From Acidobacteriota bacterium (GTDB lineage Bacteria > Acidobacteriota > Blastocatellia > Chloracidobacteriales > JADJPF01), in assembly GCA_016213785.1 (NCBI GenBank), contig JACQZQ010000068.1, forward strand, positions 1-37,280: a stretch of DNA of 37,280 nucleotides. Direction: 5' to 3'. Below are positions 33,765 through 37,280 of this stretch, one piece after another; position 1 is the first letter of the stretch, and each line of letters begins with the position of its first letter. A model generated the notes under the pieces. The model worked only from the letters and a program-made list of their open reading frames with translations. It made no database searches and was not told the origin of the DNA. The position numbers were made by a program, and so were the translations under genes.

Positions 33765-36014
33765 CTAATATCTATAGCTATAAGGATTATTCTTAGCGAT
33801 AAGCTTGCTAGCTTCATCATCTGAGAGGTTTTCTATCTGTTCAAATAAACTATCAAGTCTGCTATTAGTTTTTGGGGTTTCGACTTCCTGCTTAATGATA
33901 TTTTGAGGAGTTTTAGTAATTGTAGAGAGGCTTATATTTTCATAAATGTAGTCAGTAGCTTTATTTAAGGTGGGATAATCCCAGGTTATTGTTGGAGGTA
34001 TAGGAAACCCTAATACATCTTCTAAGTCTTGAGCCATTGTTACACCTGCAAGTGAGTCAAAACCGTAATGGGTAAATTCCTTGTCCATTTGGATATCTTT
34101 AATCTCAATACCGGTTTTTTTACTTGTCCATTCTTTTATCCATTGTTTTATAAAGTCTTTTGAAACGATATTATTTTCTTTTGAAACTGTATTAATAAAT
34201 TTCTTAGACGTGCTATCAATAAGAGTTGAGACAGGCATTTTAGCAGCAAGATTATCTAGATAATTATTAACATCCAAATTAGAAGTTAAATGACATTCTG
34301 ATGTCCAAGCTGCGATTTGGCTTAAAGCCCCTTCTAAGAATAATTTATGGCAAGCCCTACGTTGAAGCTTACCACTAGAAGTTTTACAAATAGTACCTTG
34401 TTCAATTAATACAATTGCACGGATTTCAACCTGGAATTCATTAACTATTTCAAAATGTATAGACTCTAACAATGCATTTATTTTAAGCTCTTTAAGGCTT
34501 TTACTATCAACTTCAGCAACTATTACTATTTTTTCTTCTTCATTTATTTCTATAGAAAATGCAATTACACAACCTGGTCTAATTGCTTGATGAACTTCTT
34601 CTACTTTCTTTTCTATATCTTGGGGGTAAAGATTTCTACCTCTTACTATGATTAAATCTTTGTATCTGCCAGTAATAAATAGTTCATTGTTATATATAAA
34701 GCCAAGATCCCCTGTTCTTAACCAACTATTAGAATCACCTATAATATTAGCTTGAAATATCTTTTTACTTAGTTCACTATGACCCCAATAGCCTTTTGTC
34801 ACTAAAGCCCCTGAAAGCCATATTTCTCCAATACCACTAGGAACTTGAGCAAAAGTTTCTGAGTTAACAATATTAACAGCACAAATATCTGTTATTGGCC
34901 CACAACCAACAATTTTTACCGAGTCCTCATCTGTAGCTAACAAGACTTTTTTTTGCTCAAGAGCTTGTTTTGAAAGCGTTAGGACAGTTGGTTGCCCAAC
35001 AACAGGAGGCTTTAGAGTCACTTGTAAAGTGTTTTCAGCTAAACCAAAACCTGGACACATTGCACTAGCACGAAAACCCACTGCCCCAAATTTATGTTGA
35101 AACTTATCCATTGTTTCTGCTCTAACAGGTTCAGCAGCATTAATTGATACTTCAAGACAAGATAAGTCTAGGTTTTTCAAAGTTTGTTCATCTACTTTGC
35201 GAAGACATAAATCATATCCAAAGTTTGGCGAAGCCGCAGCCGTTCCTCTAAAATGGCTAATTGCTTTAAGCCATCGAGAAGGTTTTTGTAAAAAGGCTGT
35301 TGGAGACATAAACGTGCAAGGAATTGCCCCCACAACAGGTGTCATTAATCCCCAAATTAACCCTAGATCATGATAAATAGGAAGCCAAGAAATATGATGA
35401 GCCTTCTCAAAGTTGTAAGATAAATGTTCTAAAAAATTTAAACAAGATACTACTAAATTATTATGAGTAACCATTACTCCTTTAGGATCACCTGTAGAGC
35501 CTGATGTATATTGCAAATAAGCTAAATCTTCAGATTTTGGGTGACATTCTTTCCACTCTTGAGGAGTGGTGCTAATCATATCTGTAGCAATCCATTGCAA
35601 ATGTTTTAATCCATTAACTTGAGTACATAAGGGTTCAGCCGCTTCTAATAAATCAGCACTTGTTAAAACTACTTTTGCACTAGCATCTAATACAATAGCT
35701 TGAAGGCGAGGTAAAGTCCGGTTAATACGATTATTCTCAGGAGAAAAGCCAGGCACAGCAATAACGCCTGCTGCAAAACAAGCATATATTGCAATAACAA
35801 AATCTAGCCCTGGGCTATAAAGCAATAAAGCTCTATCGCCTACTTGAGCCTGTCTCTGTAGTGTAGCCGCCACAGCCCTTACTCTATTTGCCAACTCTAG
35901 CCAAGTAATTTCAAATTGCGGGCCTGTAATATCTCCTGTTTCTAAAAATCTGTATGCTAAGTTTTGCGGTTTAGAAATAGAGTTTTTCCAAAGAAATTCC
36001 AATAAATTATGCAT
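33765..36014 (-). CDS. Fatty acyl-AMP ligase fused to an acyl carrier protein (FAAL-ACP starter unit)
   Basis: 749 aa. Residues about 1-580 form an acyl-adenylating enzyme: P-loop [16 protein letters not shown] at 169-184, a FAAL-like SPNFGYDLCLRK near 265, RTGDLGF, and the C-terminal catalytic Lys549 in SSGKLQRRACH. The sequence fits fatty acyl-AMP ligases better than acyl-CoA ligases. An ACP follows with Ser654 in YGFDSLAGV. The C-terminal tail (LDSLFEQIENLSDDEASKLI) resembles the short docking segments after ACPs in other PKS starter proteins. It should activate a free fatty acid with ATP and load it on its ACP for KS1 of gene A, 36 bp downstream. The start ATG (36012-36014) has AGGAAG (complement of 36022-36027) 7 nt upstream. 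As first gene of the operon it probably sits behind the promoter. Chain length of the fatty acid cannot be read from the sequence. Confidence 0.94.
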   Translation of the reverse strand: MHNLLEFLWKNSISKPQNLAYRFLETGDITGPQFEITWLELANRVRAVAATLQRQAQVGDRALLLYSPGLDFVIAIYACFAAGVIAVPGFSPENNRINRTLPRLQAIVLDASAKVVLTSADLLEAAEPLCTQVNGLKHLQWIATDMISTTPQEWKECHPKSEDLAYLQYTSGSTGDPKGVMVTHNNLVVSCLNFLEHLSYNFEKAHHISWLPIYHDLGLIWGLMTPVVGAIPCTFMSPTAFLQKPSRWLKAISHFRGTAAASPNFGYDLCLRKVDEQTLKNLDLSCLEVSINAAEPVRAETMDKFQHKFGAVGFRASAMCPGFGLAENTLQVTLKPPVVGQPTVLTLSKQALEQKKVLLATDEDSVKIVGCGPITDICAVNIVNSETFAQVPSGIGEIWLSGALVTKGYWGHSELSKKIFQANIIGDSNSWLRTGDLGFIYNNELFITGRYKDLIIVRGRNLYPQDIEKKVEEVHQAIRPGCVIAFSIEINEEEKIVIVAEVDSKSLKELKINALLESIHFEIVNEFQVEIRAIVLIEQGTICKTSSGKLQRRACHKLFLEGALSQIAAWTSECHLTSNLDVNNYLDNLAAKMPVSTLIDSTSKKFINTVSKENNIVSKDFIKQWIKEWTSKKTGIEIKDIQMDKEFTHYGFDSLAGVTMAQDLEDVLGFPIPPTITWDYPTLNKATDYIYENISLSTITKTPQNIIKQEVETPKTNSRLDSLFEQIENLSDDEASKLIAKNNPYSYRY

Positions 36015-36220
36015 AATTAAACTTCCTATAAATCTATATTTTTTATTAATTGTTATAATTTAACCTGCAAAGAAGTGGTGAAAACGCCCACTAGGGGAAA
36101 GTTTAGCGTTAAGGGGTAGAGTACAAAAGTTAAAAATTAAGTAGTTGCAATCTAGTTTCTATAAGAGGTACTTCTAGTCGCTAAAGTGTGTATATATAGC
36201 AGTTTCCATAAATACAAAAT

Positions 36221-36233
36221 ACGATATAATCGT
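36221..36233. promoter_or_regulatory. Operator-like palindrome ACGAT-ATA-ATCGT
   Basis: Perfect 5-bp arms around a 3-bp centre, about 210 bp upstream of the FAAL start, overlapping a TATAAT on the plus strand and the candidate minus-strand -10. The position fits a repressor or activator site for the operon. The regulator is unknown, and a 5-bp-arm palindrome in AT-rich DNA can arise by chance. Confidence 0.3.
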
Positions 36234-36341
36234 TTATAAATTTAATCAAAAAGTAAAAAGAAAAATTTAAAAGAAGGTTAAAGCGAGGCTATTTTGCACA
36301 AAGTTTTTCAAACATATAAGTCTTTTGTTGGTGTTTATTGT

Positions 36342-36430
36342 GTTGAGAAAATAGGTTGTGTTTCAATAAAATTGATATATCTTTTTGGTTATTAAACAAT
36401 TCTCTTAATAGCACGACCTATTTTCTTAAT
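36342..36430 (+). repeat. Long imperfect inverted repeat, 21-bp stem with about 47-nt loop
   Basis: Positions 36342-36362 pair with 36410-36430. The core arm is AGAAAATAGGT, matched exactly by ACCTATTTTCT. As a plus-strand RNA all 21 positions pair, four of them G-U. On the minus strand the same four positions would be C-A mismatches. The loop can form a small inner stem (AATTG 36370-36374 with CAATT 36397-36401). It lies 21 bp past the stop of the small minus-strand gene. It could be a structured plus-strand RNA, a miniature mobile element with terminal inverted repeats, or an atypical terminator; no target-site duplication or U-tract was recognised. Confidence 0.6.
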
Positions 36431-36444
36431 CTTTTCTGGAAAAG
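36431..36444. repeat. Short perfect inverted repeat CTTTTC-TG-GAAAAG
   Basis: Six-bp arms with a 2-nt centre, starting 7 bp past the stop codon of the small minus-strand gene and abutting the longer stem at 36342-36430. It might help end that transcript, but it is AT-rich, has too short a loop for an RNA hairpin without melting the inner pairs, and has no clear U-tract. Confidence 0.25.
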
Positions 36445-36450
36445 AACTAA

Positions 36451-36708
36451 TTAATATAACTCTGAGTTTTTTTCTTTTGTTGATTTTTCAAGTTCTGCTG
36501 CAACTCTTTCAATTTCTACTAACCAATCATAGATCATTTGTAAATTAGGTAATGATTCTTCAGAAACATTATAAAAAGTAAAATCTCTGGCTGGTGGCAT
36601 ACTGTGATTAGAGTTTGTTAATTTATTTAGTGCTGTTTTAGTCTTTCGTTCTGTTGAATTCAAGAAATACAATATTTCCCTCATTGCATATTTTGATTTG
36701 TTATCCAT
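36451..36708 (-). CDS. Small hypothetical protein, 85 aa
   Basis: The ATG (36706-36708) is preceded by GGAGG (complement of 36713-36717) with a 4-nt gap, the strongest ribosome binding site in the window, which supports a real gene. The product is hydrophilic and probably mostly helical: an N-terminal helix rich in Lys/Arg (KYAMREILYFLNSTERK), a central Pro/Phe-containing segment (MPPARDFTFY), and a C-terminal amphipathic helix (YDWLVEIERVAAELEKS). No signal peptide, membrane segment, DNA-binding motif or catalytic signature is recognisable, and the family is unknown. It points the same way as the FAAL operon but lies 436 bp upstream, with a stem structure between, so it is probably a separate transcript. 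Confidence 0.75.
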   Translation of the reverse strand: MDNKSKYAMREILYFLNSTERKTKTALNKLTNSNHSMPPARDFTFYNVSEESLPNLQMIYDWLVEIERVAAELEKSTKEKNSELY

Positions 36709-36917
36709 TTATCCTCCATAAAATTAAATCCTTATATAATTAAAATATAAATTTATTTAGCTTACATAGTATCTAACCAACACTGTTTAGTGTAAGTAGT
36801 ACTTCCTTACTTATAACTATCTTGATCAAAAATACATACTTACTTTTTCTTCGTATTTTATGATAGGATCATAGGGAAAGCTAACCATCTTTTTTATCTA
36901 CTACCATTAATCAAGTT
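36709..36917. promoter_or_regulatory. Divergent intergenic region with palindromes
   Basis: 209 bp separate the two divergently read small genes, so promoters for both should be here. It is very AT-rich. Symmetric elements: AAGTA-G-TACTT (36794-36804), TTGATCAA (36822-36829) and TATGAT-AGG-ATCATA (36859-36873). The last contains a -10-like TATGAT on the plus strand, about 50 bp before the next ATG. No well-spaced -35 box was identified. Confidence 0.4.
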
Positions 36918-37148
36918 ATGACTACCCCGTTAGCCCTTTGGCAAGAAAAAAAACAATATTTAGAATACCAATTAGCTATTACTTCTGATGCTAGCCAAAT
37001 GTATACACTACGTAAGCAAATACAAGAGTGTGAAACAGAAATTGCTAGACTACAATCTAAAGCTACTCAAGAGCAAGCAATAATGCCATTTAGACAAGGA
37101 GCAATCACTAGTTCCACTGTTGCTTTTATTATAATCAAAGAATTATAG
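36918..37148 (+). CDS. Small coiled-coil protein, 76 aa, resembling effector-associated coiled-coil modules
   Basis: Residues about 6-48 form a predicted amphipathic coiled coil (LWQEKKQYLEYQLAITSDAS, then LRKQIQECETEIARLQ). The pattern of a leucine-rich helix, an AI-x-SDxxQ turn and a LxKQIxEC helix resembles short segments often found at one end of multidomain cyanobacterial and other bacterial conflict or signalling proteins. That is a memory-based family resemblance, not a search result. The last 25 residues (from QAIMPFRQG) show no recognised domain. The protein is therefore stand-alone or the remnant of a larger one. No clear Shine-Dalgarno sequence precedes the ATG. It is divergent from the 85-aa gene and not obviously part of the PKS pathway. 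Confidence 0.65.
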   Translation: MTTPLALWQEKKQYLEYQLAITSDASQMYTLRKQIQECETEIARLQSKATQEQAIMPFRQGAITSSTVAFIIIKEL

Positions 37149-37220
37149 TATTTAACCAAAAAGATGAGAATTTGAAAAAGTTTTATGGTAGTATGTAAGA
37201 AAACTTAAGGAAAAAGAAAA

Positions 37221-37280
37221 ATGAGAGTAAAAGTAGAAGAAGCAAATAAGCTAGATAAATATTTGGAGAATAGAGAAAAA
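37221..37280 (+). CDS. Start of an unidentified gene, 3' truncated by window edge
   Basis: ATG at 37221 opens a frame that runs to the window end without a stop, giving 20 residues starting MRVKVEEANKLDKYLE. A good Shine-Dalgarno sequence, AAGGA at 37207-37211, lies 9 nt upstream, and the gene begins 72 bp after the stop of the coiled-coil gene on the same strand. Too little is visible to name a family; the visible part is hydrophilic and helix-prone. Confidence 0.5.
   Translation, partial: MRVKVEEANKLDKYLENREK

Follow-up and report, generated by a model that had tools for sequence, protein, structure and literature searches.

A long hairpin beside a PKS/NRPS-like gene cluster of an acidobacterium as the likely remnant of an IS1-type miniature element

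Between two minus-strand genes of the window, by which we mean the whole 37,280-nucleotide stretch of acidobacterial DNA analysed here, lies an inverted repeat that is unbroken when read as plus-strand RNA, which raises the question of whether the locus encodes a structured transcript or carries the trace of a mobile element. The preliminary description had put forward both: a plus-strand RNA missing from the annotation and lying antisense to the leader of the operon, or a small mobile element bounded by terminal inverted repeats. The stem joins 36342-36362 to 36410-36430 in 21 consecutive plus-strand pairs, 17 Watson-Crick and four G-U (36342/36430, 36345/36427, 36357/36415 and 36361/36411), around a loop of 47 nt; on the minus strand the four G-U pairs become C-A. 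The coordinates and pair count first given for it (21 pairs, no plus-strand mismatch, four C-A on the minus strand) are correct, as is the assignment of both flanking genes to the minus strand (Table 1). Folding of 36336-36436 gave -28.3 kcal/mol (z -6.1) for the plus strand and -19.7 kcal/mol (z -5.1) for the minus strand, and in both cases none of 200 shuffles folded as well. When the window was shuffled 60 times with dinucleotides preserved, no shuffle contained a 21-pair stem and one contained a 20-pair stem within a span of at most 140 bases; under the same span limit, the longest other stem on the plus strand of the window has 17 pairs, and it is the only other one of that length. The 21-pair stem is thus real and unlikely by chance.

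Table 1. Positions of the hairpin components and neighbouring open reading frames in the window
Feature	Position	Strand	Basis or remark
Left insertion-site flank, outer 12 bp of stem	36342..36353	+	12 pairs with 36419-36430
Putative IS1-type MITE copy, 65 bp	36354..36418	+	ends and first half common to the C34, C120 (two) and C122 copies
Left-type terminal inverted repeat GGTTGTGTTTCAATAAAATTGAT	36354..36376	+	1 mismatch to searched pattern
Right-type terminal inverted repeat GGTCGTGCTATTAAGAGAATTGTT (minus-strand reading)	36395..36418	-	local alignment to other copies
Right insertion-site flank	36419..36430	+	reverse complement of left flank (two G-U), not a direct repeat
85-aa ORF, no Pfam match	36451..36708	-	stop 20 bp from stem
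749-aa ORF	33765..36014	-	ORF listing

The 749-aa ORF is presumably a fatty acyl-AMP ligase with a carrier domain and the first gene of a PKS/NRPS cluster. Judged by their translations, positions 2-36014 hold giant PKS/NRPS-like ORFs of 5323 and 5412 aa headed by this ligase-like ORF, and another PKS fragment, its end resembling a thioesterase, occupies 2-1462 on the opposite strand. A pattern search for relatives of the 85-aa ORF matched 85 stretches, none of which encodes a relative. When the genome itself and 38 relatives (39 genomes) were searched, only one genome, from the same genus, matched, at 36783-37130 and at 31 bases in 36245-36275. The former region, which surrounds a small plus-strand ORF, is found at three places in that genome with 73-76% identity, perhaps as members of a small gene family with several copies. 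The ligases that match best there are only about 40% identical, so they do not represent the same locus, and neither an orthologous nor an empty site was found among the 38 relatives. The terminal 141 bases of the contig (37140-37280) are repeated with 100% identity where contig C49 ends, 139 of them also close contig C40, and shorter pieces of 37-54 bases repeat on C36, C41, C11 and C94. The contig therefore breaks off within a repeat present in several copies, which is perhaps another insertion sequence.

A DNA search of the whole genome led to a second site, on contig C122, that reads GGTCGTGTTTCAAAAGAATTGAT ... ATCAACTTTATTGAAACACGACC with CAAAATAC on both sides. A left-end pattern taken from the C122 end matched the 6.4-Mb genome eight times, in seven elements (the window, C122, C106, C34, C120, an insertion sequence on C39 and a truncated one on C16), and the reversed pattern, used as a control, matched nowhere. 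Patterns for both ends, restricted to a total length of 61-122, found five elements including the window, again with no control match. Together with two more DNA searches, the left-end matches were read out as short copies of 109 bp (C122), 272 bp (C106), 95 bp (C34), twice 109 bp (C120) and 89 bp (C57). The genome-wide search for further copies that the preliminary description had proposed thus returned six other short copies and an 870-bp IS1-family element with like ends, and the genome holds at least seven short copies, the window included. Across five of these, the core aligns with a mean column identity of 76%. Comparisons of eight copies below refer to the seven short copies and the C39 element, with the truncated element on C16 left out; weaker insertion-sequence pieces on C114 (82%, 97 bases) and at C120:631-710 (76%) stand outside all counts. 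A short match on C97, to 36433-36468, was set aside, since its 3-kb locus contains no copy of the 23-base end with up to seven mismatches allowed. The 272-bp copy (L006 1501-1772) carries an extra insert, and both of its strands fold very strongly, at about -82 kcal/mol for the element, which suggests a nested inverted repeat within it. In 12 related genomes the MITE had no match, as judged by one query at E 0.001 that also missed three of the seven copies in its own genome.

The 870-bp element on C39 begins and ends like the MITE (GGTCGTGTTGCAAAA...) and encodes both proteins expected of an IS1-type parent: InsA, with zinc-ribbon and helix-turn-helix domains (PF03811, PF12759), and InsB, with a DDE domain (PF03400, E 2.1e-44) that is the single PF03400 match in the whole genome. 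InsB lies in the -1 frame relative to InsA, and its open frame spans an A9C run near the end of InsA. The inverted repeats of the window copy matched this IS1-family element directly at the left end and through other MITE copies at the right. The InsB relatives found are mostly cyanobacterial, the best by E-value being 65% identical. In other genomes, 27 of 54 loci of IS1 relatives were examined, and 21 of the 27 have a GGTNNTG end pair, the only end form looked for, with at least 13 of 22 positions identical; an exact duplication of at least seven bases accompanies two of these 21 and measures 9 bp in both. A parent of the IS1595 type, which the GG ends together with the 8-bp repeat had suggested, was rejected, there being no PF12762 match in the genome. 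On contig C16 (L008 521-2043), a truncated IS1-type element that retains the InsA half is followed by an ISL3-type transposase.

The window copy, at 65 bp, is shorter than the 95-109-bp copies by an internal deletion, and its first half matches the family core. It combines two end types, one on the left and a second on the right that is also present at C34, C106 and both C120 copies. Since alignments of the copies miss the internal deletion of the window copy, the right end (36395-36418) was compared separately; its local alignment scores to the same end were 26 for C34, 22 and 20 for the two C120 copies and 21 for C106, and against either end of the C39 element it shares only the seven bases GGTCGTG (score 14). 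For the inner 17 bases of this end, an equal or better match was found in 4 of 20,000 genomic 17-mers and in 21 of 20,000 shuffles. The alignment of the right end to the other MITEs requires a gap and several mismatches, which counts against assigning it to the family. On balance, we consider 36354-36418 to be a decayed, non-autonomous IS1-family miniature element and the hairpin its by-product, with a probability of roughly 0.87. Such copies were presumably mobilised in trans: InsAB' transposase from an autonomous resident element, for example the 870-bp one, would once have bound both ends, and copies would have spread. Part of the core is lost and there is no direct target duplication, so the window copy is probably immobile; the claim made here is one of descent from an IS1-type MITE, not of present mobility. 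The suggestion of a small mobile element thus gains support from the further copies, the resident IS1-type element and 8-bp duplications at two other copies, but of the 21 pairs it accounts for just the innermost 9, formed by the tips of the inverted repeats. The outer 12 pairs lie in the insertion-site flanks, and apart from them the hairpin is an ordinary feature of a mobile element.

Exact 8-bp direct repeats are present at two of the eight copies, C122 (CAAAATAC) and C39 (CTTTTTGG, allowing one base of slack on the left), and absent from the other six, including the window; C34 has only a 4-base direct repeat, and that with a base of slack at either side. Because six of eight copies in the same genome have no 8-bp repeat, its lack at the window copy is unremarkable by itself. 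The flanks pair with each other instead, in 8 exact pairs or 12 when two G-U pairs are counted. The corresponding outer run amounts to three pairs at the C39 element and none at the remaining six copies, and when pairs of sites separated by 65 bp were drawn at random 400,000 times from 15 genomic loci, only nine paired this well. The outer 12 pairs are thus beyond chance, and the mobile-element reading alone leaves them unexplained. Our best guess is that a template switch during replication made the outer arms reverse-complementary: a polymerase stalled at the hairpin would have switched template and, by copying one flank in reverse, replaced the sequence of the opposite flank. If so, the locus is a tidy natural example of inverted-repeat ends seeding longer hairpins. 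The arms might instead predate the element, which would then have inserted into an A/T palindrome (TTGAGAAAATATTTTCTTAA) and duplicated 2 bp, TA, without any template switch. TA does adjoin the element on both flanks, and overlapping the flanks at TA yields a palindrome; however, two other copies are bordered by 8-bp duplications, and a two-base TA target duplication is a trait of other families, so we regard this origin of the arms as unlikely.

Whatever its origin, the stem might act as a terminator in either direction, ending transcription of the 85-aa minus-strand ORF or insulating the PKS operon, a role compatible with descent from a MITE. A G/C core lies between an A-tract and a T-tract (arms AGAAAATA-GGTYGTG ... 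CACGACC-TATTTTCT), both strands fold well, the 85-aa ORF stops 20 bp before the stem, and the C57 copy sits between convergent ORFs. However, intrinsic terminators usually have loops shorter than the 47 nt seen here, and none of the seven other copies has a comparable outer arm; a terminator scan made no call, although it allows loops of 3-8 only and is thus a weak test. We therefore think a terminator role improbable, about as much so as the palindromic target. A bolder combination, in which a template switch during replication reshaped a dead IS1-type MITE into a long stem that now serves as a two-way terminator or leader structure before the giant PKS/NRPS operon, strikes us as very doubtful; were it true, a mobile-element end would have become a regulatory hairpin in a single mutational step.

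The strand asymmetry, which had been read as a hint of a plus-strand RNA, carries little weight. A transition in a formerly perfect stem appears as G-U when one strand is read and as C-A when its complement is, and the two-sided chance of all four imperfections favouring the same strand is 0.125. Two of the four pairs (36357/36415 and 36361/36411) lie within the inverted repeat and were probably inherited with the element, because the C34 copy has both in the same orientation. Over the first 23 positions of the eight copies, compared without gaps, 17 G-U stand against 17 C-A, a count to which the window contributes 2 and 4, as its regular pairing stops after position 9, and in which the orientation of some copies is arbitrary. 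Given the chance level, the shared pairs and this balance, the asymmetry does not point to a plus-strand RNA. Covariation, also proposed earlier, does not help: compensatory changes were found at none of 19 consensus pairs across five sequences of the MITE family, in which the right end of the window copy is partly aligned and the outer 12 pairs have no relatives. A plus-strand RNA that is absent from the annotation, runs antisense to the leader of the operon and uses the stem as its structure is highly improbable: the stem is unbroken on that strand only, the plus-strand fold is better by 8.6 kcal/mol and promoter-like sites occur on the plus strand upstream (TTTCCA-16-TATAAT, 10/12, at 36203-36230) and at 36343-36372, but the latter site sits inside the left arm and loop, such sites are at chance level (7 found against 8.7 expected in 35900-37280, both strands), and 36000-37280 has no Rfam match up to E 1. 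We infer that the stem has no function in a plus-strand RNA. What the analysis contributes is little more than annotation: a small family of IS1-type MITEs is now named for this genome, and the antisense-RNA lead is weaker than before.

On insertion, IS1 duplicates 8 or 9 bp of its target as direct repeats, and in the E. coli element InsB lies in the -1 frame and is reached by a frameshift of -1 at A6C, as outlined in PMC12428005. The C39 element resembles the family so described in having InsA followed, after an A-run, by InsB in the -1 frame, and in its 8-bp duplication; it differs in length and in the run itself (870 bp and A9C, against 768 bp and A6C in E. coli IS1), and the window copy is unlike IS1 in having neither gene nor duplication. 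Hairpins attributed to template switching, in which one replication event copies a stretch in reverse complement and so creates or mends a stem (PMC8794818), share the stem-making likeness, although here no ancestral sequence displays the event. The titles and abstract openings of the matches listed for IS1-family MITEs include no such element, from which we do not claim absence from the literature. Within the IS1 family, an ISAba3-like element described in PMC6382973 makes 8-bp duplications and ends in GGTGGTGTTTCAAAAAGTATGCTG, which by eye resembles the end of the MITE, GGTCGTGTTTCAATAAAGTTGAT, closely; the same source reports that only 40% of 90 copies of MITEAba12 of Acinetobacter keep a target duplication and 60% do not. 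A Microcystis MITE of 187 bp folds as a stem-loop (PMC11448079). The parents of those two MITEs are different, ISAba12 and the ISL3 family, whereas the copies in the present genome are few and diverged; like both of them, the element in the window is short and non-coding and has inverted repeats that match a resident insertion sequence.
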